The translations under genes were made by a program, and so were the position numbers. A stretch of DNA of 64,000 nucleotides. It comes from a virus. The stretch is taken from positions 52,445 to 116,444 of IMG/VR virus record IMGVR_UViG_3300044646_002092, one strand, 5' to 3'. Numbering within the stretch: the stretch's first letter is position 1; the number at the start of each line of letters is the position of its first letter. This document shows positions 6,704 to 52,653 of the stretch, piece after piece. Below the pieces are notes generated by a model. It saw only the letters and a program-made list of their open reading frames with translations. It was not told the origin of the DNA and did not search any database.

Positions 6704-7830
6704 CCAACGCAGTCGAAATCGTAACAATCTCTCGCATCATCCCTATCTATAAAAATGGCGAAGAAGCCTCATCAATCCAAGTCGTTAACTTCAATTTTGC
6801 CAATGGCGATGAATGTGGTTATAACGTTGTCTCACAAAAAGGCATCTATCAAGTAGGCTAAAAGGCTGTATACATCCAACCTGACTACTGCTTACCTGAT
6901 TCTTCTTTGTTCACAAGCTTCACAGCCCCAAACGGCGACCCCAACAAATCCAGACTTGGACGCAACAATCGCATTCGGGCGCTCAAGTTCAATTTCAGCT
7001 TTGAGAATAGTAGCGACCCAATCTATTCCGTCGGCATCTTACTGAATACAAACGAGCTGCCTATCGAGTTACTTGCGGCTGAAGACCTCGCAGCAGCTTT
7101 GGGCATCACTAAGTACGAAGAACCAGAGAAAGGCGCTACAGGTCAAACCAGAGGCACACTGCCTTCTTTTTTGTACTCTACTGATGAAGAAAATTGTGCG
7201 AATCTCAAATCCCACATCAATCGTGTTCTTGAAAGTGGGGCAGAAGTTGCTTACACTATTAAAGTTGACGGAAGCTCATTCACTGAGTATTTCAAGAAAG
7301 ATGCTGAAGGCAATTGGTACACAGGTATTTGCTCTCGCTCGTTAGAGAAGAAAATTACTGATGACACTGCTGATAGTTGGGTCAAACTGGCTAAGTCTTC
7401 TGGATTGTACGAGCGTGGCATGGAATATTGCAAGAAGCACAACGTCGAGTTGGCGTTTCGGGGAGAAATCTATGGTCAGGGCTTGAAAGGTAGCGGCAAT
7501 AAGCTGAATCCAGATGCTAATAAGAAGCAAGGACTAATTCTTTTCGGTATCGATAACTTATCAAGTGGTTTTGCTACTCGAATCCATTATGGTCAGCCTC
7601 ACAATCTTGAACTTGTTTGCGACGAACTGCAACTCCAATATACTCCTTTAGTAAGGTTTTTCTCCCAATTTCGCCCCAAAAATTACGACGAACTAATCTC
7701 GTTTGCTTCTGATGTTTTTAAAAGAGAAAAAGAAGCTGGTCGAGTCGTTGAGGGTATTGTCGTTCGCACACTTTACTCAAACGATTTGTCGGTCAAGGTC
7801 ATGAACCCATACTACGACAGCAAAAAATAA
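6700..7830 (+). pseudogene. ATP-dependent RNA ligase with in-frame TAA stop
   Basis: Read through one internal stop, this frame gives about 375 residues of an RNA ligase of the type with an N-terminal OB-like domain (DRB0094-like, by memory). Nucleotidyltransferase motifs are intact: motif I KVDGS with adenylated Lys188 in read-through numbering, motif III FRGEIYGQ, motif IV VEGIVVR and motif V LSVKVMN. The TAA at 6859-6861 falls in a conserved stretch, VVSQKGIYQVG-stop-KAVYIQPDYCLPD, where relatives have an acidic residue, so a single GAA-to-TAA change explains it. Reinitiation at TTG 6907 would give 307 residues keeping all catalytic motifs but losing the N-terminal domain. Neighbouring genes end with TAA, so the codon is not reassigned. 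Either a nonsense mutation, a sequencing error or programmed readthrough. Phage RNA ligases usually repair tRNA cut by host defences. Confidence 0.75.
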
Positions 7831-7832: not shown

Positions 7833-8117
7833 CTAGATGTACTTCGCTAGGTAGAGGACAAAAAACTATACTTTTGCATATAATAAAGAAATGAACCCTG
7901 AGTTTCACTAACCCTACTTTTTAAAATAGGGATTAACCTAATCAGTTAGGTTAACGTAAGAAGCGAATAGCTCATTGAGACTTGATTTGGTACAGACTTC
8001 CGAATGCTTCTCTAGTTCGGATTATCTCTAAACCTGATTGTTCAGGTGTTGGGTAAAGCCAAGACATCTTAATCAAGTTGAGCGAGGAGACTTAAACAAT
8101 TTTGGGTTATACCAACA
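7832..8117 (+). ncRNA. Putative omega RNA (HEARO-like) of the IsrB element
   Basis: This 286-base region has no good reading frame but several strong hairpins: CCCTA/TAGGG (7912-7916 with 7927-7931), a perfect 9-bp stem TTAACCTAA/TTAGGTTAA with a 4-nt loop (7933-7954), CCGAA/TTCGG (8000-8004 with 8016-8020) and ACCTGA/TCAGGT (8032-8047). It ends in GGGTTATACCAACA directly before the IsrB start, an ending I associate with cyanobacterial HEARO RNAs. Position, length (about 300 nt) and structure fit the guide RNA of IscB/IsrB nucleases, whose guide lies at the 5' end in flanking DNA. The precise 5' end is unknown. Confidence 0.7.
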
Positions 8118-9215
8118 ATGCGTATTCCAGTAGTAGATACAAATCATCAACCCTTAATGCCTACTACACCCGCGAGAGCTAGAAAGTGGATTGAATCTGG
8201 CAAAGCGGTAAAACGTTGGTCAGATTGTGGTCAGTTCTACGTTCAGCTACAAGTAGAGCCATCTGGAAAAGAAAAGCAAGCTATTGTCATCGGGCTTGAT
8301 TCAGGCAAGAAATATTCAGGTATAGGTGTGCAATCTGCAAAATTCACTTTATACTCAACCCATTTAAAATTACCATTTCAGATGGTGAGGAATCGGATGG
8401 AACTAAGAGGGTTATTGCGAAGAAGTCGTCGGGGTCGCAGAATTAATCGCAAGGTAAAGTTCTCAAAACGCGCTCATAGACAATTAAGGTTCTCGAACCG
8501 CAGGAAAACTAAACTAGCCCCGTCAATCCGTTCTAATCGGCAACTAGAACTTCGTATTATATCCGAATTGTGTAAGATTTTTCCAATCAGCGCAATTAGA
8601 TATGAATATGTAAAAGCAGACATAGATTTAACTAGTGGACGCAAAAAAGCAAGGTCAGGTAAAAGTTTTTCTCCTGTTATGGTCGGTCAGAAATGGTTGA
8701 TTGAACAGTTAAATAAATTCGCCACCACTACCACTATTTTTGGCTATCAAACATCCCTAGTACGTTCTCACCTCGGTTTGGTAAAAAATAAAAATGATAA
8801 ATCAAAACCTTGCTTTGAGACACACGCTGTTGATGGAGTAGCTATTGCTTGCTCCCATTTTGTAGAGTATAAAAAATACCATAAACAAGGAGAGGATGGA
8901 GCAGATTGGGTTGGTGCAGTCAGTGTTACTAAAGCTTCTTTTTTTGTAATTCGCAGACCATCTTTTTCTCGTCGCCAATTACATTTGATAATACCAATTA
9001 AAGGTGGTGTTAGGCATAAATATGGAGGCTCTACTACCCGACACGGTTTCCGTAAGGGAGATTTAGTAAGCTCCCCTAAAGGTATTGGCTATATTAGTGG
9101 CGATACTGTAAAAGCCGTATCTGTTAGCGATTTCAACTGGAAAAGATTAGGGCAAATAGCCCCCAGTAAAATTAGATTGATACACCGTTCAAATGGGTTA
9201 GTTGTTACTTCCTAA
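8118..9215 (+). CDS. isrB: IsrB-type RNA-guided nickase (RuvC without HNH)
   Basis: 365 residues. Domain order: PLMP motif at 12-15, RuvC-I IGLDSGKKYSGIGV with Asp61, Arg-rich bridge helix at about 100-115 (RRSRRGRRINRK), RuvC-II with Glu163 (RYEYVKADID), and RuvC-III ETHAVDGVAIA with His236 and Asp239. Where IscB carries an HNH domain between RuvC-II and III there are only about 70 residues without Cys pairs or an HNH signature, which defines IsrB. The C-terminal region (GGSTTRHGFRKGDLV, GIGYISGD) matches the conserved tail of the family. IsrB proteins are known to nick DNA under omega-RNA guidance. All catalytic residues are present, so it is probably active. The protein is very basic. It may act here as a homing-type endonuclease (inference). 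Confidence 0.9.
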   Translation: MRIPVVDTNHQPLMPTTPARARKWIESGKAVKRWSDCGQFYVQLQVEPSGKEKQAIVIGLDSGKKYSGIGVQSAKFTLYSTHLKLPFQMVRNRMELRGLLRRSRRGRRINRKVKFSKRAHRQLRFSNRRKTKLAPSIRSNRQLELRIISELCKIFPISAIRYEYVKADIDLTSGRKKARSGKSFSPVMVGQKWLIEQLNKFATTTTIFGYQTSLVRSHLGLVKNKNDKSKPCFETHAVDGVAIACSHFVEYKKYHKQGEDGADWVGAVSVTKASFFVIRRPSFSRRQLHLIIPIKGGVRHKYGGSTTRHGFRKGDLVSSPKGIGYISGDTVKAVSVSDFNWKRLGQIAPSKIRLIHRSNGLVVTS

Positions 9216-38003: not shown

Positions 38004-38924
38004 TTATACCGTACTAGATGCGTGATTGAGTTTCTCTTCTTCGGTAGCGTATCTGTAATTTACAAAATCAGGGCTGGAACTTTTTATTCTTTTGCCTAGG
38101 GTAGCCTTACTTATACCTTCTAATTTTACAGCTAATCTCATCGATTCGTAATAAACATTATTTACCAAAACAGGTATACTACTAGGAGTACCAGCACCAG
38201 TCAGTTTTGCACTTATTTTAGCTCTAGCCTCCATTGTCACATCTCTTCCCATAGTTGCAGCGCTAATTTTAGCTTTAGTTTCTTCAGATGTAACTTTACC
38301 TTTCTGAAAAGCACTCATTTTTGCTCTGCTCTCAGTAGTGTGTACTCTACCCTTATTTATAGAGGCTAAATACACTATTCTTTCTTTCATCTCATCTGTA
38401 AAGGGTCTATCTTTCGCTATTTCACTCATCTTTGCTTTTGTTTCTTCAGTATGTTTCCTACCCTTACCAGCCAAACTGATTTTTTCTCTTGTTTTTTCTG
38501 AGACAATTCTGCCAGTACTTGCAGCACGCAACTTAGATTTGGTTTCCTCGGTATGCTTCTTGCCAAGTCTAGTCTGCTGACCTTTTTTGGATGCCCTCAT
38601 TTTAGCTTTCATCTCTTCTGTAAGATTAACCCCACCCCTCCCGCCAAGACTTATATTGTAGGTGTCTTCACGTTTGACAAATTCTTGAGTTACCATTTCA
38701 GCTTCGGCTAAATAAGCATCAGTAGCACAACTAAATTCAGCCAGTGTAGTCCTAATAAATTTATCTTTACCATACTTCTTCACAGCCAACTGTAAAGCAT
38801 CCCCACTTCCGATATAACACTTAGACTTAGAAGTATTTGAAAGCTTATGCACCCCCACATAAATTTTGCCATTACAAACGTTCGTAGTTTTATATAAAAT
38901 CCAAATCTCTTTATTTGTTTCCAT
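38004..38924 (-). CDS. GIY-YIG homing endonuclease with NUMOD3 repeats (copy A)
   Basis: 306 residues. N-terminal GIY-YIG domain: WILYKTTNVCNGKIYVGVHKL, CYIGSG, an AEAEMV Glu and TYNISLGG. Four to eight NUMOD3-type repeats follow from about 100 (HTEETKSKLRAAS, SEKTREKISLA, HTEETKAKMSE, TSEETKAKISAA), then a NUMOD1-like end (SMRLAVKLEGISKATLGKRI). Free-standing homing endonucleases spread by cutting alleles lacking them. It is divergent from a 47-residue basic gene, an arrangement repeated at 43.7-44.7 kb. About 60% identical by eye to copy B in the GIY-YIG part. Confidence 0.9.
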   Translation of the reverse strand: METNKEIWILYKTTNVCNGKIYVGVHKLSNTSKSKCYIGSGDALQLAVKKYGKDKFIRTTLAEFSCATDAYLAEAEMVTQEFVKREDTYNISLGGRGGVNLTEEMKAKMRASKKGQQTRLGKKHTEETKSKLRAASTGRIVSEKTREKISLAGKGRKHTEETKAKMSEIAKDRPFTDEMKERIVYLASINKGRVHTTESRAKMSAFQKGKVTSEETKAKISAATMGRDVTMEARAKISAKLTGAGTPSSIPVLVNNVYYESMRLAVKLEGISKATLGKRIKSSSPDFVNYRYATEEEKLNHASSTV

Positions 38925-38982
38925 TGCAAATATGCCTTTCCTGAGTTATAATAGATACAGTATAGCACACTGTGAGTATAAA
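38924..38982. promoter_or_regulatory. Divergent promoter region of cassette A
   Basis: Plus strand: TTGCAA (38924-38929), 17 bases, TATAAT (38947-38952), giving a good promoter for the 47-residue gene. Minus strand: extended -10 TGTGCTATACT (38969-38959) for the endonuclease. The two overlap, so binding of one regulator could control both. Confidence 0.6.
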
Positions 38983-39126
38983 ATGCGTCCTGATAAGTCA
39001 AAACGTCTAAATGCAAAGTTATCTGCCAAAAGACATGAAAAATTGTCGAAATATGCAGAGTCCCAAGATAAAGATATGACATCCGTTATCGAGTCGTGGA
39101 TTGATTCTCTCCCCAACGTAGAATAA
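38983..39126 (+). CDS. Small ribbon-helix-helix-like regulator (cassette A)
   Basis: 47 residues: MRPDKSKRLNAKLSAKRHEK, then a helical stretch LSKYAESQDKDMTSVIESWIDSLPNVE. The order of a short basic strand (KRLNAKLS) and two helices (RHEKLSKYAES, MTSVIESWIDSL) fits ribbon-helix-helix DNA-binding proteins. A paralogue of 48 residues lies divergently beside the second homing endonuclease. Its stop overlaps the start of the next gene (TAATG). Regulation of the divergent endonuclease is a reasonable inference. Confidence 0.7.
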   Translation: MRPDKSKRLNAKLSAKRHEKLSKYAESQDKDMTSVIESWIDSLPNVE

Positions 39127-39872
39127 TGACCGATTCCCTATTCCCCAAAGTTGACGGGCATGAGTTCCTTGCACCAAGAAATTCTGTCGGAGTGCCATTC
39201 GAGACGCTGTTCGCCGCCGAGGATAATTCACTTCACCAGAAACTTAACGGTTCCTACGATAAGTACTTCCCCCTCTATGTCCTAACAAATATTCAAGGTT
39301 CTAAGACCGACTACCGCCCAAGTATCAACCTAATTAATGCCACTGGCACTGAAACGAAGCTGAAAGGAGTGATGACCCCGACAATATATAAGGAAAAGAT
39401 AAATAGGCGCGAGGTGGGTCGAAAAAACGATGTTCACCCTATACTCGGCAATAAAAATTTGGCATTAAACAGAATTTACTATCGTGAATTTCTAATACCC
39501 AAGCTCGACCCTCGATATTCTCTGATTATTGATGGCAAATTCATAACAAACACAATTCAAAAGCCAGCCGAACAATTCACAGATATCTCAGTAAGCCCTA
39601 GCAGTGTCTTCGAGCCATTTGCCAAGGGAAGTCTTGTAAAGTACTCTGGTAACTACTGGAGATGTCTAGAGCCTACCAAAGCTTACCCAAGCAGTGAGAA
39701 TACGAGCTGGAAACAACTACCACAGCAACAATCAATTTTCACTGCGGATATCTATTCAATTTTTGGTAGTAATGTACAATTTCTGCAAACTTATACCGAA
39801 GACCGCACTTTTAGACCAGAACAACAAGATACCTCTTTGGTTACATATAATGTTTCGTGTTTTTATGGTTAG
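39126..39872 (+). CDS. Probable structural protein with CBM-like segment
   Basis: 248 residues, beta-rich; no helix-rich region. Residues about 165-200 contain FAKGSLVKYSGNYWRCLEPTKAYPSSENTSWKQL-type spacing typical of small chitin-binding-like modules (YxxGxxVxxxGxxYxC...PxxxxxW). Its start overlaps the RHH-like gene stop (TAATG), so the cassette is inserted in or linked to this operon. A virion or fibre role is likely but the precise part is unknown. Confidence 0.6.
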   Translation: MTDSLFPKVDGHEFLAPRNSVGVPFETLFAAEDNSLHQKLNGSYDKYFPLYVLTNIQGSKTDYRPSINLINATGTETKLKGVMTPTIYKEKINRREVGRKNDVHPILGNKNLALNRIYYREFLIPKLDPRYSLIIDGKFITNTIQKPAEQFTDISVSPSSVFEPFAKGSLVKYSGNYWRCLEPTKAYPSSENTSWKQLPQQQSIFTADIYSIFGSNVQFLQTYTEDRTFRPEQQDTSLVTYNVSCFYG

Positions 39873-39978
39873 ATAGTAATAGGATAAACCGTCCAACAGT
39901 AGTGTAGGTACTGGGGAGTTGTATAAGCCTTAATCAAACAACCCCATCTACCACATCCATAAATTTATTAAGTAAAAA

Positions 39979-40255
39979 ATGAACATCTTATTTATTCTGC
40001 TAGCTGGCGAATCTTGAGTCTGCCTTACAGCACTGGGGATTTACTAAAGGTGGCTGCGAAGATGAAGGAATTTATTGGTATTCACAAGTTTTAGATAGAG
40101 TATTAAATGTGGCAGAATTTCACGATGGAGTATACCTATCTTCTAAGACTAGTAGCGATTTAATACCTAATTATCATGCTTTTCCTCATATTTTGCGACG
40201 TAGAGTAAGTTTGCTGATGTCAAATCATACTATTAGACCAATGTTTACCTCTTAA
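39979..40255 (+). pseudogene. Possible frameshifted small gene
   Basis: ATG 39979 encodes only 12 residues (MNILFILLAGES) before TGA at 40015. In the next frame, from just after TAG 40001, 83 codons run to TAA 40255: LANLESALQHWGFTKGGCED, then IYWYSQVLDRVL and TSSDLIPNYHAF. The two pieces would join into one protein of about 90 residues if one base were inserted or deleted near 40001-40006. CTG 40004 could otherwise serve as start. The second piece has good coding character; family unknown. Confidence 0.4.
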
Positions 40256-40278
40256 GATGGATATACATACGTCTATTT

Positions 40279-40289
40279 TGTGTTATATT
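40279..40289 (+). promoter_or_regulatory. Extended -10 promoter of tRNA cluster
   Basis: TGTGTTATATT: a TG dinucleotide one base before TATATT. The expected transcription start, 7 bases on, coincides with the first base of tRNA-Met. It resembles TGTGCTATA sites before other genes in the window. Confidence 0.6.
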
Positions 40290-40296
40290 AGTAATC

Positions 40297-40371
40297 GGCG
40301 GGATGGAGCAGTCTGGTTAGCTTGCGAGGCTCATAACCTTGAGGTCGATAGTTCAAATCTATCTCCCGCCA
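40297..40371 (+). tRNA. tRNA-Met (CAT)
   Basis: Acceptor GGCGGGA pairs with TCCCGCC, discriminator A. Anticodon loop CTCATAA gives anticodon CAT (40332-40334). T arm GATAGTTCAAATCTATC. No initiator-like 1-72 mismatch, so elongator Met or lysidine-modified Ile is possible. The CCA end is not encoded. Confidence 0.9.
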
Positions 40372-40600
40372 TAACACCCTTCCGAGTGTCTCGGATTGCT
40401 TAGTGAAAGTGGCAGTTTCAACACTGCGCTTAGCCGTATAAAGGCTAGGCTCCTACAGGTGGTCATGGAAACTAACACTGGTGTTTACGATAAGAGCTAC
40501 ATTACGTGAGTATGTAGAGTTGGGGCTGGTAATACTACAGGCTGTCAGTGGTTTCAAGAACGGTTGTAACACAGTTGAGAGCTGACCTCTTATTTAACTT
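40372..40600 (+). ncRNA. Unexplained structured segment within tRNA cluster
   Basis: 229 bases between tRNA-Met and tRNA-Gly hold no recognisable tRNA but six hairpins in series: CCGAG/CTCGG (40382-40394), GCAGT/ACTGC (40412-40427), GCTTAGCC/GGCTAGGC with one G-T pair (40428-40450), AACAC/GTGTT (40474-40485), CTACAT/ATGTAG (40497-40517) and GTCAG/CTGAC (40544-40586). All lie in the presumed tRNA transcript. GC content is higher than in surrounding DNA. It might be a new small RNA, degenerate tRNAs or a processing element. Confidence 0.45.
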
Positions 40601-40671
40601 GCGGTTATGGTATAAAGGAATTATTCTTGGCTTCCACCCAAGAGATGAGATATCGTAATTCTCTAACCGCT
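40601..40671 (+). tRNA. tRNA-Gly (TCC)
   Basis: Acceptor GCGGTTA/TAACCGC, anticodon stem CTTGG/CCAAG with loop CTTCCAC, anticodon TCC (40633-40635). T arm slightly irregular (GAGATATCGTAATTCTC), yet the overall alignment with cyanobacterial tRNA-Gly is good. A mildly degenerate T loop. Confidence 0.8.
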
Positions 40672-40674
40672 TAA

Positions 40675-40747
40675 TCCTCTATAGCTCAGTTGGTAGAGCG
40701 TCGCGCTGTTAACGCGAATGTCCTTAGTTCGAGTCTAAGTGGAGGAG
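40675..40747 (+). tRNA. tRNA-Asn (GTT)
   Basis: Acceptor TCCTCTA/TGGAGGA (one T-G pair), D arm GCTCAGTTGGTAGAGC, anticodon loop CTGTTAA with GTT at 40708-40710, T arm CTTAGTTCGAGTCTAAG. Canonical. Confidence 0.95.
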
Positions 40748-40750
40748 TTT

Positions 40751-40821
40751 GGGTCATTAGCTCATGGGTAGAGCATCTGGCTTTTAACCAGACCAAGACG
40801 ATTCGAGCGCGTCATGACCCT
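40751..40821 (+). tRNA. tRNA-Lys (TTT)
   Basis: Acceptor GGGTCAT/ATGACCC, D arm GCTCATGGGTAGAGC, anticodon loop CTTTTAA with TTT at 40783-40785. T arm GACGATTCGAGCGCGTC is acceptable. Starts four bases after tRNA-Asn ends. Confidence 0.9.
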
Positions 40822-40895
40822 TTGTGATTAGCTCAGTGGATTAGAGCATTCCCCTTCTAAGGGAAGAGTCGTTGGTTCGAGTCCAACATCACAAG
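40822..40895 (+). tRNA. tRNA-Arg (TCT)
   Basis: Acceptor TTGTGAT/ATCACAA, anticodon stem TTCCC/GGGAA with loop CTTCTAA, anticodon TCT (40856-40858), T arm GTTGGTTCGAGTCCAAC. Abuts tRNA-Lys directly. Reads AGA/AGG codons, which AT-rich phage genes use often. Confidence 0.95.
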
Positions 40896-40901
40896 CCAAA
40901 T

Positions 40902-40973
40902 GGCTCTCTAGCATAATGGTATTGCAGCTCTCCTGTAAAGAGCAGATTGTCAGTTCGACTCTGACGGGAGCCT
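40902..40973 (+). tRNA. tRNA-Thr (TGT)
   Basis: Acceptor GGCTCTC/GGGAGCC (one T-G pair), anticodon stem GCTCT/AGAGC with loop CCTGTAA, anticodon TGT (40934-40936), T arm GTCAGTTCGACTCTGAC. Last tRNA of the cluster. Confidence 0.9.
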
Positions 40974-40981
40974 TAAATTTT

Positions 40982-40992
40982 CGCGCTATACT
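40982..40992 (+). promoter_or_regulatory. Extended -10-like site after the tRNA cluster
   Basis: CGCGCTATACT, related to the TGTGCTATA sites, with TATACT at 40987-40992. It lies 24 bases before the ATG at 41016. Confidence 0.4.
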
Positions 40993-41015
40993 AAGTAAAA
41001 CACGGGAATTATATT

Positions 41016-41279
41016 ATGTATTACGCCGCACTCTTAGTATTTGTTGCATTAGTCGTATTTTTTGCTACTCCAGCCTTGAAAAAAAGCGACGATAATCCAA
41101 CTCCTCTAGACTTTCGAGAGATTCAGTATAAACTGGGCTTCCCTAAAACTGGTGGTCAAGGAGGAGGAAGTAGATACACTCCCCCTAAACGCAAGCCTCC
41201 TGAAAGAACTCAACCTACAGGAAGTCGCGTTGAAGATGAAGTTGTAACCAACCCTGAAAATAAACAAGGGAAAAACTAG
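41016..41279 (+). CDS. Small membrane-anchored protein
   Basis: 87 residues. Residues 1-20 are one hydrophobic segment (MYYAALLVFVALVVFFATPAL); the rest is polar, Pro/Lys/Gly-rich and likely disordered outside the membrane (SRYTPPKRKPPERTQPTGS). It may be a signal anchor or an uncleaved signal peptide. Resembles small inner-membrane subunits such as spanin-like proteins only superficially. It stands alone after the tRNA genes. Confidence 0.65.
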   Translation: MYYAALLVFVALVVFFATPALKKSDDNPTPLDFREIQYKLGFPKTGGQGGGSRYTPPKRKPPERTQPTGSRVEDEVVTNPENKQGKN

Positions 41280-41336
41280 TCCAAAAAACCATTGGGGAAG
41301 AAAGTTTCGTCCGACACTCCAAATTAATTCTTAATA

Positions 41337-43232
41337 CTAAAAAAATCCTGAAGGAAATAGGCTAGGTTCTTGACTCATTCTCAGTTTCTGCTCTGGATTA
41401 GGTGAACGCACAAGTATAGACTCGGTATCACTAGCTGCTATCGGTCTATACCCAATATTGAAACTACTGACGCTACTACCGCCCAAAGCTCCAAGAATTT
41501 GCGTATATATTGCTATGTACGCATTTTGTCTATTATTTGGGTTAGTGCTATCAGGAGACGAGAAACTTGGCGCTAAACTAAAACTAGGAGCCGAAGGCAC
41601 AACAGAATTGTCGTAAAAACGGTCGCCAGACGATGAACTTGACCCTATGCGCTCTGGGTTGACTTGATAGTAGTAACAGCCTTCGTGAGAAAAAAGCGGA
41701 GGCATACTATATCTTAAAACAAAGCTAAACTCTCCTCGACGAATAGGGAAGTAGCCAGTCTCAGGATTTGGCGGCGCATCCCAAGTTGTTATAACTTGAT
41801 TTGGTAATGTTTTGAATAGTTCTCCATAAGGCGCACTACCCTCTACAAATAATGTTGATTTTCTCTCTAAGCCTGTAGCTCTATCAACAAAAAATGTGTA
41901 TTGATTCTTAGTTAAAGGATATACATCAAGAATTTGCCCATAAGCCCACCAATACTTATATTGCCACTCATAACTGACACCACGTTTACCTACAGAGCTT
42001 TTTATTTCGTATGGATGATTTATTTTTCCTTCTGCCGTACCCATATCTAGTCGCAGGAGATTTGCACCTTCTTTTGAAGCTGCAAGTACACCAAAAGGAT
42101 TAGGTCGAATTACATTTGATTTCTGAGAATACTTTTGCAAACTAAATCTAGCTTGGTCAGTGCCGTAGTCAGGTGATTGACGAGGAGAAAATAAAGTATA
42201 GTTAGTATTTCCTACATAAGTCGCATCTGAATTGCAAAACTCAGTAATATTTTTTTCTGTCAGCAACGCAGATTGCCTTGGACGTAATACAAGTTCAAGA
42301 TTATAATCTGAAATTCTGTTGTGGACTATAACTCCAGTATTTTCCAATAACTTGTCATCATTACTAACAGAGTATCTTCTCCACCTATATCTGAGTACTG
42401 ATTGACCTCTGCACCAAGTATAGGAATAAGTAGGGGTGACACTGTATGACACAACAGTAAAATTGACACCATTAACAGTTGAGATTTTTTTATAGCGCTC
42501 ATCACTAGCTGGAGCTACCCCTTCAATGGGTATTCTATCTTCTGGGTCAATTACCATACAAGCCCAGATGCCTCCACCAAGATAGTTTAAGTTATCTAGA
42601 GAGAAGTTTGATTTAAAGCACTTTGGCAGTCCTACTGTATCAAGATTTAGTTGATAAATAGTCCTCTCCCCAATATTGATTCCGTCATTTTGAGGTGAGA
42701 TGTCCGAATTATCGATGCTAACTAAAGTCCAATCTACCTCCTTAAGACCATCTTGCTTATTTTTGGTAGATTTTACATATGCAATGTGAGCAGACCATCC
42801 TTCTCGATTGGATGAATTGGCTGAGACGTATGCGCGTATCTGAGTCTGGTAACTATCACAGAAAAAAGTATAGATTGGTTCATTAGTGCCCCTTAAATCC
42901 TCATCAATATACACAGAAAAATAATTAATAAGTTCACCATCAGACTCTGGGAACTTAACAGGAGCTGGCAGAGGAAACTTAGCAAGTATGGCGCTTTTTT
43001 CGAGGTTGGTTTGAGTTATTCTTAGACGCGAAATCGCCGTGGTTAAGGGAAGTCCCGTAAGTCTACGAACTGTGATGAGTTTGAATAGCGACTCATTCGG
43101 TGTCCTTTGCTTATTCCGTTTTTGTACCTTAGTGTCAACCGTTGATTGATTTGAGACTAAAATCCACTCGGAAGTTTGCGAGTCCCTCAGATATACGCGA
43201 CCCGCATTATCCCTTTTAACAAATCTTCCCAT
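41337..43232 (-). CDS. Large probable virion protein
   Basis: 631 residues, mixed with abundant beta strands, Tyr, Ser and Pro. It shows no recognised domain. The N-terminus (MGRFVKRDNAGRVYLRDSQTSEWILV) looks like a small assembly-type beta piece common to tail fibres. No transmembrane segment. The 131-residue HFANF-type gene begins immediately upstream on the same strand, one base apart, indicating a pair as for other fibre genes. Confidence 0.65.
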   Translation of the reverse strand: MGRFVKRDNAGRVYLRDSQTSEWILVSNQSTVDTKVQKRNKQRTPNESLFKLITVRRLTGLPLTTAISRLRITQTNLEKSAILAKFPLPAPVKFPESDGELINYFSVYIDEDLRGTNEPIYTFFCDSYQTQIRAYVSANSSNREGWSAHIAYVKSTKNKQDGLKEVDWTLVSIDNSDISPQNDGINIGERTIYQLNLDTVGLPKCFKSNFSLDNLNYLGGGIWACMVIDPEDRIPIEGVAPASDERYKKISTVNGVNFTVVSYSVTPTYSYTWCRGQSVLRYRWRRYSVSNDDKLLENTGVIVHNRISDYNLELVLRPRQSALLTEKNITEFCNSDATYVGNTNYTLFSPRQSPDYGTDQARFSLQKYSQKSNVIRPNPFGVLAASKEGANLLRLDMGTAEGKINHPYEIKSSVGKRGVSYEWQYKYWWAYGQILDVYPLTKNQYTFFVDRATGLERKSTLFVEGSAPYGELFKTLPNQVITTWDAPPNPETGYFPIRRGEFSFVLRYSMPPLFSHEGCYYYQVNPERIGSSSSSGDRFYDNSVVPSAPSFSLAPSFSSPDSTNPNNRQNAYIAIYTQILGALGGSSVSSFNIGYRPIAASDTESILVRSPNPEQKLRMSQEPSLFPSGFF

Positions 43233-43628
43233 TTAGAAATTTACAAAGTGCTGGAAATTACTACTGAAGCCGCCGTACTGACCAACCTGAGCATTTTGTT
43301 GACTTTTCCAGTTACCAACACTAGTTTTTCGACGAATCACACCGTTTGCGTCATAGAACTCATCTGGGGCAAGAGGTTTTTGAGGATTTCTAGGTGCTTG
43401 TTGCTTACTCATACCACGACCCACGCTGGCGCTTGCAATTGCCTCCTGCCTGTTCAAGCTAGGAGGAGCATTCTGCACTACTGCTGCCCTCTGGTCACGA
43501 GTCAGCGATAAAGGAGAAGCGTTTAAGGGAGAATTTCCCCAAGTCGGCACGTTGGGTTGTTGAGGCTTAAATGCTTGACGTAGTTGAGAGGCTTTGTTTG
43601 AAATTGTTGGTAGAAATGTTTGTGGCAT
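43233..43628 (-). CDS. HFANF-motif protein (C-terminal motif)
   Basis: 131 residues, Gln/Asn/Pro/Arg-rich and probably disordered, with the ending GGFSSNFQHFVNF, matching the HFANF motif found at the start of other proteins. Its stop is adjacent to the start of the 631-residue gene. It begins MPQTFLPTISNKASQLRQAF. A tether or packaging function is possible but unproven. Confidence 0.6.
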   Translation of the reverse strand: MPQTFLPTISNKASQLRQAFKPQQPNVPTWGNSPLNASPLSLTRDQRAAVVQNAPPSLNRQEAIASASVGRGMSKQQAPRNPQKPLAPDEFYDANGVIRRKTSVGNWKSQQNAQVGQYGGFSSNFQHFVNF

Positions 43629-43652
43629 TGTAGTTAGTTACTCTTTTATATT

Positions 43653-43799
43653 TTAGTTTAACACTTTGACTTCTGGAAGACTATCAATCCAATCTTCAAA
43701 AAGAACCGTCATAGCTCTGTCCCTTGATTCGGCATAGTTTTTCAGCTTAGTCATACGTTTCTCTGATAAAGTAGCGTTAAATCTTTTATCTTTACTCAT
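43653..43799 (-). CDS. Small ribbon-helix-helix-like regulator (cassette B)
   Basis: 48 residues: MSKDKRFNATLSEKRMTKLK, then NYAESRDRAMTVLFEDWIDSLPEVKVLN. It aligns along its length with the 47-residue protein of cassette A (KRLNAKLSAKRHEKLSKYAES, SWIDSLPNVE). Divergent from homing endonuclease copy B across 57 bases. Likely DNA-binding regulator. Confidence 0.7.
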   Translation of the reverse strand: MSKDKRFNATLSEKRMTKLKNYAESRDRAMTVLFEDWIDSLPEVKVLN

Positions 43800-43856
43800 G
43801 ATTGGTGTCAATGTTATGTTATAGTTTAATTATAACTTATAAATAGAAATTACACA
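43800..43856. promoter_or_regulatory. Divergent promoter region of cassette B
   Basis: Plus strand: extended -10 TGTTATAGT (43817-43825) before the endonuclease. Minus strand: TATAAT (43834-43829) before the small regulator. The sites overlap, as in cassette A, and both cassettes share AGTTATAAT when read toward the small regulator. Confidence 0.55.
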
Positions 43857-44726
43857 ATGAGTGATACTTGGATACTTTATCAGACCACAAATTTGGTTAA
43901 CGGTAAAATTTATGTAGGGGTGCATAAATTGGCTGATACTAGCTATTCTAGAAGCTACCTTGGTAGTGGCTGTGCTTTAAAACCAGCTATCGAAAAATAT
44001 GGGAAAGAAAATTTTAGAAGGGCTACACTGGCAGAGTTCTCTTGTGCTAAAGATGCTTACGAAGCCGAGACTCAAATGGTTACTGAGGAGTTTTGCAATC
44101 GAAAAAATACTTATAATCTAAGAATAGGTGGTGAAGGCGGTATTTTCACAGAAGAAGCTAGAGTTAAAATGAGTGCGGCAGCTAAAGGAAAACAACACAC
44201 GCCTGAAACTAGAGCAAAAATGAGTGCTTCACATAAGGGAAAAATAATAACGGCTGAAGCTAAGGCTAAAATTGGCGCGGCTTCTAAAGGGAACAAACAT
44301 CGGTTAGGTAGTGTTGCTTCATTAGAGACAAGAGCAAAAATGAGTGCTTCTCAAAAAGGTAGAACTGCAAGCGAAGAAACTAAAATTAAGCTCAGCAATG
44401 CAGCTAAAGGAAGAGTACTTAGCGAGGAACATAAAGCAAAATTAAGTGCCTTACGCACAGGTAGAACTACAAGTGCTGAAACTAAAAATAAAATGAGTAT
44501 TGCTAATGGTAGACCTGTTGTACTGCATGGTAAATACTACACATCGAGCAAAAAAGCTGCTAAAATCAATGAAATAGCTCACACTACTTTACGATGGAGG
44601 CTCAATAATCCTTCTCTTAACTGGATAGAATGGCGCTATGCTACAGAAGAAGAAGTTGCTAACTTTTTGAGAGAGGGAGTTGCGGAGGTTCAAAATTTGT
44701 TTGATAACGTTGTGCGCCATACGTGA
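43857..44726 (+). CDS. GIY-YIG homing endonuclease with NUMOD3 repeats (copy B)
   Basis: 289 residues. GIY-YIG domain: WILYQTTNLVNGKIYVGVHKL, SYLGSG, EAETQMV and TYNLRIGG. NUMOD3-type repeats from about 100 to 220 (FTEEARVKMSAAAKGK, HTPETRAKMSASHKGK, SEETKIKLSNAAKGR, SEEHKAKLSALRTGR), then a NUMOD1-like end (SSKKAAKINEIAHTTLRWRL). Its last 68 bases overlap the convergent giant fibre gene, so the insertion is at the very end of that gene. Active-site residues appear intact. Confidence 0.9.
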   Translation: MSDTWILYQTTNLVNGKIYVGVHKLADTSYSRSYLGSGCALKPAIEKYGKENFRRATLAEFSCAKDAYEAETQMVTEEFCNRKNTYNLRIGGEGGIFTEEARVKMSAAAKGKQHTPETRAKMSASHKGKIITAEAKAKIGAASKGNKHRLGSVASLETRAKMSASQKGRTASEETKIKLSNAAKGRVLSEEHKAKLSALRTGRTTSAETKNKMSIANGRPVVLHGKYYTSSKKAAKINEIAHTTLRWRLNNPSLNWIEWRYATEEEVANFLREGVAEVQNLFDNVVRHT

Positions 44727-52286: not shown

Positions 52287-52653
52287 TATCTAGTTTGTAT
52301 GCTCGAAACGTGACCTCTGGTTGTAATGACTGGAGGTTTTGTCTCATGCGCCGACGGGCTGGAAAATTTTAGAAGAAGTAGAAGTAGTGATTCTACGTGT
52401 ATAAAACACAAAAATAAGTCAGGCTGAAATGTAAGCTCCGAAAGACTTTCAAAATTTCCGTACAAAACTTACGTTGTGTTTTTATTTTTTTAAATTTGGT
52501 CAGGTCGTGGTTTTTGTGAGGTTTTGGTTATTAGAAAAAGTTAAGTTAGTGTTTTGTTGTGGTTTTAGCTGTTGATTTTAAGTATATCTTTAGAGAGATG
52601 GTAAGCACTTTGTGGTTTGTGCTATATTAATAAAAGAAAACAAAAACTCACTA
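52287..52653 (+). other. Noncoding leader with promoter
   Basis: 367 bases without a gene. Contains ACCTC/GAGGT (52311-52336), a weak hairpin with a short T-run, and CGACGGGCTGGAA plus a GAAGAAGTAGAAG run (52353-52386) resembling the 18.17-18.22 kb leader. CTTTAGAGAGATG (52588-52600), a 17-base gap and TGTGCTATATT (52618-52628) form the same composite element found before both KilA-N genes; it lies 26 bases upstream of the ATG. The segment 52440-52600 is very T-rich. Confidence 0.55.

Follow-up and report, generated by a model that had tools for sequence, protein, structure and literature searches.

Two copies of what is probably a two-gene selfish cassette, in which a Seg-like GIY-YIG homing endonuclease is accompanied by its own ribbon-helix-helix (RHH) autorepressor, divergently arranged across a control region of 54-60 bp, were identified in a 64,000-nucleotide stretch of viral DNA (hereafter the window; positions 52,445 to 116,444 of the 116,444-base IMG/VR virus record IMGVR_UViG_3300044646_002092). 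Among the relatives of this virus are PA-SR01 and Pam2, freshwater phages of Pseudanabaena. The containment of selfish nucleases within the genomes that carry them has been little studied outside phage T4, and a dedicated repressor travelling with the nuclease would be a simple answer to the problem of harm to the carrier.

Two divergent gene pairs

An earlier note on this DNA, made from its sequence alone, had described two GIY-YIG/NUMOD3 genes, each divergent from a gene for 47 or 48 residues across a short spacer (58 bp in cassette 1, 57 bp in cassette 2), with the two cassettes inverted relative to each other. The coordinates and strands of the four genes bear this out:

38004-38924, minus strand: endonuclease 1, a predicted free-standing GIY-YIG/NUMOD3 (Seg-like) homing endonuclease of 306 amino acids, recognized by NUMOD3, PHROG 314, NCBIfam and its catalytic positions
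38983-39126, plus strand: small 1, an RHH protein of 47 amino acids, predicted repressor
43653-43799, minus strand: small 2, an RHH protein of 48 amino acids, predicted repressor
43857-44726, plus strand: endonuclease 2, predicted GIY-YIG/NUMOD3, 289 amino acids

The two small proteins share 62% identity and the two endonucleases 45%. The stop codon of endonuclease 1 lies inside a TATAAT-like sequence 5' of the portal gene, that of small 1 overlaps the ATG of the next gene (the 39126 gene), and the last 68 bases of endonuclease 2 run antisense into the 3' end of a convergent tail gene (44659-44726). The pairing of the two genes exceeds chance, as it recurs in every contig with the small gene that has enough flanking sequence.

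Both large proteins matched NUMOD3 at approximately 1e-19 (4e-19 for endonuclease 1) and the homing endonuclease family PHROG 314 at approximately 1e-58 (3e-58 for endonuclease 1), and both scored above the cutoff of the NCBIfam model for group I intron endonucleases (TIGR01453); the match to Pfam GIY-YIG was weak (0.0015, below cutoff). The catalytic positions Y11, Y22, H26, E74 and N90 are invariant across 19 cassettes. A GIY-YIG catalytic core together with NUMOD3 repeats is the hallmark of the free-standing Seg-like homing endonucleases, and both proteins are assigned to this class on the strength of their sequences; they would be expected to cut DNA and to home.

Distribution and mobility of the cassette

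The cassette was found in approximately 20 distinct copies among PA-SR01/Pam2-like freshwater cyanophages. The small gene is present in PA-SR01, where it is annotated as hypothetical, at 17 IMG/VR loci, and in Pam2, where it is unannotated, in keeping with the remark of the earlier note that genes of this size are easily missed; the absence of small genes beside homologous endonucleases in related genomes, which that note had named as grounds for abandoning its proposal, is thus not what these phages show. Wherever the flank was long enough, the divergent partner was an endonuclease of this one family and the spacer measured 54-60 bp. The small gene is under purifying selection, the ratio of nonsynonymous to synonymous substitution rates (dN/dS) being 0.03-0.17 in close pairs. 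Beside 68 other relatives of the endonuclease outside the cassette clade, a search for an RHH-like divergent partner gave no family match.

Four insertion sites were recognized. At site 1 the cassette lies between the portal gene and the 39126 gene, at site 2 it adjoins the 3' end of the large tail gene, at site 3 it stands between homologues of the window genes 14405 and 15710, and at site 4 it is beside a homologue of 50128. Copies from different sites align across the small gene, the spacer and the endonuclease, and their flanks drop to background identity. As the four sites are unrelated and their flanks non-homologous, the two genes move together as a single unit. Empty alleles were found at site 1 in PA-SR01, with 42 bp between the two start codons, and at site 2 in two contigs (L018 and L032); occupied and empty alleles of the same site therefore coexist, as is expected of a homing endonuclease.

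Traces of exchange were also seen. Cassette 2 of the window (copy W2) and contig L025 are identical from the middle of the small gene through the endonuclease and beyond and differ on the other side, an identity block that marks a recent conversion tract. In two further pairs (L007a/L009 and L013/L015) the small gene is nearly identical and the body of the endonuclease is not, which indicates that endonuclease bodies have been exchanged beneath a conserved head. A scar of the cassette persists at site 2 of another contig (L214, 1792-1878, minus strand), where approximately 30 C-terminal RHH codons remain between two structural genes and the endonuclease is gone. Where the cassette occupies site 2 or 3, the endonuclease gene extends at its 3' end antisense over the 3' end of a convergent structural gene and thus borrows its stop codon from the flank.

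The small protein as a probable RHH protein

A profile of the small proteins matched a cyanobacterial family with 99.6% probability, and members of that family match DUF6364, RHH_1, 56B_RHH and antitoxin RHH families. Searched directly against Pfam and NCBIfam, the small proteins gave only matches below cutoff, to RHH_5, DUF6364 and ParG, and eight of 17 matched the PHROG Arc-like repressor (best 0.0013). When the PDB was searched by sequence with the phage and cyanobacterial profiles, no RHH entry was found. An AlphaFold2 model built from 22 aligned sequences has an extended region (residues 1-12) followed by two helices (residues 13-25 and 30-40), with a predicted local distance difference test score (pLDDT) of 89. 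The strand of RHH proteins forms only in the dimer, and the model is of a single chain. Its PDB matches, individually weak, were nearly all RHH repressors or antitoxins, including CopG, PutA, Arc, AmrZ and TacA1. The RHH-like layout proposed in the earlier note agrees with this model, and the assignment is well supported though not proven.

Relatives of the small protein beside other nucleases

Of 386 cyanobacterial genomes, 60 contain relatives of the small protein, frequently as multiple copies. A divergent open reading frame lies within 260 bp at 51 of 71 sampled cyanobacterial loci (L124-L197), and 46 of those 51 frames are OrfB_IS605/TnpB by Pfam. The spacers between RHH and TnpB genes carry opposed -10 boxes, together with a tandem repeat of approximately GTGTAGaCA at 11-bp spacing that precedes the RHH start (log-likelihood 166 versus approximately 38 in shuffles; z 9.5 for the 11-bp periodicity). 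RHH operators are known to have such a geometry of short tandem repeats at 11-bp spacing. The cyanobacterial family also includes solitary RHH copies that have no TnpB beside them.

The phage small proteins form one clade (support 0.99) among these cyanobacterial relatives. In another virus (L204), an RHH relative is divergent, across 60 bp, to a NUMOD4-HNH endonuclease beside a portal gene, and in further viral contigs RHH relatives adjoin TnpB-like frames. We lean slightly toward the view that these tiny RHH proteins, all of one family, act as a portable and autonomous module for the control of selfish nucleases, which was passed from cyanobacterial TnpB transposons to phage GIY-YIG and NUMOD4-HNH homing endonucleases, each with a two-way operator-promoter, such that RNA-guided and protein-guided homing nucleases would share one type of dedicated repressor. 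No description of TnpB paired with RHH or CopG was found in the open literature, most subscription papers lying outside the scope of that search. In one viral contig (L213; 1250-2266 and 4532-5473), two RHH genes are each divergent to a Rha-like antirepressor and not to a nuclease.

The control region

The elements recognized in the two spacers of the window are as follows:

38924-38929, plus strand: -35 box TTGCAA of the small 1 promoter, overlapping the endonuclease 1 start codon
38947-38952, plus strand: -10 box TATAAT of the small 1 promoter, 17 nt from the -35 box
38959-38967, minus strand: extended -10 box TGCTATACT of the endonuclease 1 promoter, opposed to the small-gene promoter, its TGnTATnnT kept in 18 spacers
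38965-38982, no strand assigned: predicted operator of RHH 1 in the RHH-side half of the spacer, from lineage-specific conservation
43800-43817, no strand assigned: predicted operator of RHH 2, from lineage-specific conservation
43817-43825, plus strand: extended -10 box TGTTATAGT of the endonuclease 2 promoter
43829-43834, minus strand: -10 box TATAAT of the small 2 promoter
43852-43857, minus strand: -35 box TTGTGT of the small 2 promoter

The overlapping divergent promoters described in the earlier note, with TATAAT directed toward the small gene and an extended -10 toward the endonuclease, proved correct and conserved: all 18 distinct spacers carry TATAAT or TATACT in the first direction and TGnTATnnT in the second. 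The small-gene promoter is of the sigma-70 type, and that of cassette 1 (TTGCAA-17-TATAAT) is among the top-scoring promoter-like sites of the window; the endonuclease promoter consists of the facing extended -10 without a clear -35. A CATTG beside the endonuclease start is near-invariant among the spacers.

Within an RHH lineage, the RHH-side block of the spacer differs at 5.8% of positions, compared to 35% at third codon positions of the RHH gene and 31% in the other half of the spacer; between lineages the block differs at 43%. This lineage-bound block behaves as a cognate operator should, and it would be the predicted binding site of the RHH protein. A search of the window with each candidate operator returned a single match and no recurrence, and given this uniqueness the regulator looks local.

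Proposed function of the cassette

The pairing of a homing endonuclease with a dedicated regulator, as the earlier note had suggested, is the best-supported reading, the small gene standing beside the endonuclease and its protein giving an RHH-type model; the regulator would act by repression. Upon entry into a cell free of repressor, both promoters would fire; they overlap, and the RHH promoter, which is close to consensus, would compete for polymerase with the weaker, extended -10 promoter of the endonuclease. The endonuclease would be made briefly and cut cassette-free alleles; in homing, repair would then insert a copy of the entire cassette, from time to time at a new site. As the RHH dimer builds up, it would bind the RHH-side half of the spacer, covering the -35/-10 region of the endonuclease promoter and the start of its own transcript, and shut off both the nuclease and its own gene. 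Such a burst-then-shut-off circuit would limit off-target cutting and the load on the carrier. The RHH module itself is a member of the cyanobacterial family whose genes are placed in like manner next to TnpB. With operators predicted, the repressor model is open to direct test.

Several observations weigh against this reading. With respect to the fold, the individual PDB matches have E-values near 1, the protein being short, and a first model, from 16 close sequences, was one long helix and was not used as fold evidence. Three members of the endonuclease clade (L029, L034 and L036) lack the small gene, which is hence dispensable in some settings; in one of the three, the endonuclease starts directly after the stop codon of the upstream gene and may use that gene's promoter. 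The conserved block is linked to the RHH gene, and shared descent accounts for part of its pattern; one copy (L017b) is an exception to the match between the block and the recognition-strand residue. The operator motif of the TnpB spacers fits the phage spacers only partly (z 2.1, 3.0 and 0.4 for three motif widths), and the phages show a weaker 11-bp periodicity (z 3.9), part of which comes from the two -10 boxes. As an operator signal, this phage periodicity was set aside as confounded by the duplicated -10 boxes.

The small protein could instead be an accessory DNA-binding or immunity factor that works in the manner of an antitoxin: by attaching either to the homing target or to the endonuclease, it would determine the specificity of the endonuclease or shield the genome. 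Many antitoxins contain RHH domains, some of the matches were to antitoxin families, and the small gene is always co-mobile with the nuclease. Nevertheless, this role is unlikely: a protein of 47-50 residues comprises the DNA-binding core only, the same RHH family pairs with the unrelated nucleases TnpB, HNH and GIY-YIG, the constrained block sits in the shared promoter, and clade members without the RHH gene exist. Type II antitoxins hold their toxin by a C-terminal tail, which the small proteins lack. A type II toxin-antitoxin system proper was set aside, the genes being divergent and not in an operon and the small proteins having no tail past the RHH core. It is very unlikely that the RHH gene regulates neighbouring phage genes, or hitchhikes as a regulator useful to the phage. 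The overlap of its stop codon with the ATG of the 39126 gene at site 1 would permit coupling, and RHH relatives in another virus adjoin Rha-like antirepressors; yet across the four sites the RHH gene keeps its endonuclease and not the flanking genes, and neither candidate operator has a second occurrence in the window. That a single gene pair was inherited vertically from long ago, with no functional tie between its members, would accord with the restriction of all cassettes to one related phage group and of their RHH proteins to one clade; this reading is already disfavoured and barely credible given the four insertion sites with non-homologous flanks, the cassette-free alleles, the discordant divergence of RHH and endonuclease, and the reappearance of the layout with other nucleases.

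Comparison with known systems

In phage T4, I-TevI represses its own promoter; repression there is due either to the endonuclease or to RNA structure, and seven free-standing T4 genes were reported to be promoter-less (PMC2988022). The autorepressed cassette proposed here resembles the T4 Seg endonucleases and I-TevI as GIY-YIG/NUMOD3 homing endonucleases in phage DNA whose expression would be held down, but differs in having a distinct RHH gene, which moves together with the endonuclease and brings a two-way promoter of its own. A 2025 paper on moraphages pairs CcdA/HicB-like antitoxins with Pac-I-like endonucleases and suggests a regulatory role (PMC12619734). As in the cassette, a multicopy phage homing endonuclease there adjoins an RHH-type, antitoxin-like gene, whereas the endonuclease family and the phages are others, and the passages concerned show no analysis of operator, spacer or mobility. 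The statement in the earlier note that such a pairing is not a standard description was mostly right, except that I-TevI self-repression (PMC2988022) and antitoxin/endonuclease pairs in moraphages (PMC12619734) were already known.

In cyanobacterial type V-K CRISPR-associated transposons (CAST), MerR or Arc-like regulators (CvkR, Arc_1 and Arc_2) are encoded in reverse immediately upstream of cas12k, whose repression by CvkR has been proven (PMC9938897). The layout is alike: a small DNA-binding gene is reversed upstream of its partner; Arc_2 belongs to RHH_5, the Pfam family weakly matched here. Cas12k is the effector of a CRISPR transposon and derives from TnpB, whereas the phage partners found here are endonucleases of the GIY-YIG or HNH type and the genomic partner is plain TnpB; the position that defines Arc_2, directly upstream of cas12k, is accordingly taken by GIY-YIG genes in the phages and by TnpB in the genomes. 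The small protein also resembles RHH repressors of the CopG/Arc type, which autoregulate through short repeated operators, in predicted fold and in size (CopG has 45 residues), but its partner is a homing nuclease and not a gene of plasmid replication or lysogeny.

What is new is the GIY-YIG endonuclease and predicted RHH autorepressor as one mobile unit, with a repressor family common to plain TnpB elements; the idea is not wholly new. That the same family recurs next to TnpB, HNH and GIY-YIG enzymes alike suggests that the problem of containing such nucleases has a general solution.

Other features of the window

Between the two cassettes lie six tRNA genes (Met, Gly, Asn, Lys, Arg and Thr; 40297-40973, plus strand), with approximately 230 bp without an assigned gene between the first and the second. 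Elsewhere, the same phage encodes an RNA-guided nuclease, a 365-residue RRXRR/IscB-type protein (8118-9215, plus strand; RRXRR 6e-47); its match to the IscB model is partial and an HNH domain was not found in it, which makes it IsrB-like. Directly 5' of this gene is a HEARO/omega-RNA-like structure (7904-8097, plus strand; 37 bits, below the family cutoff), and just 5' of the IscB-like gene is also encoded an RNA ligase-like protein (6907-7830, plus strand; TIGR02306 6e-16, below its cutoff).

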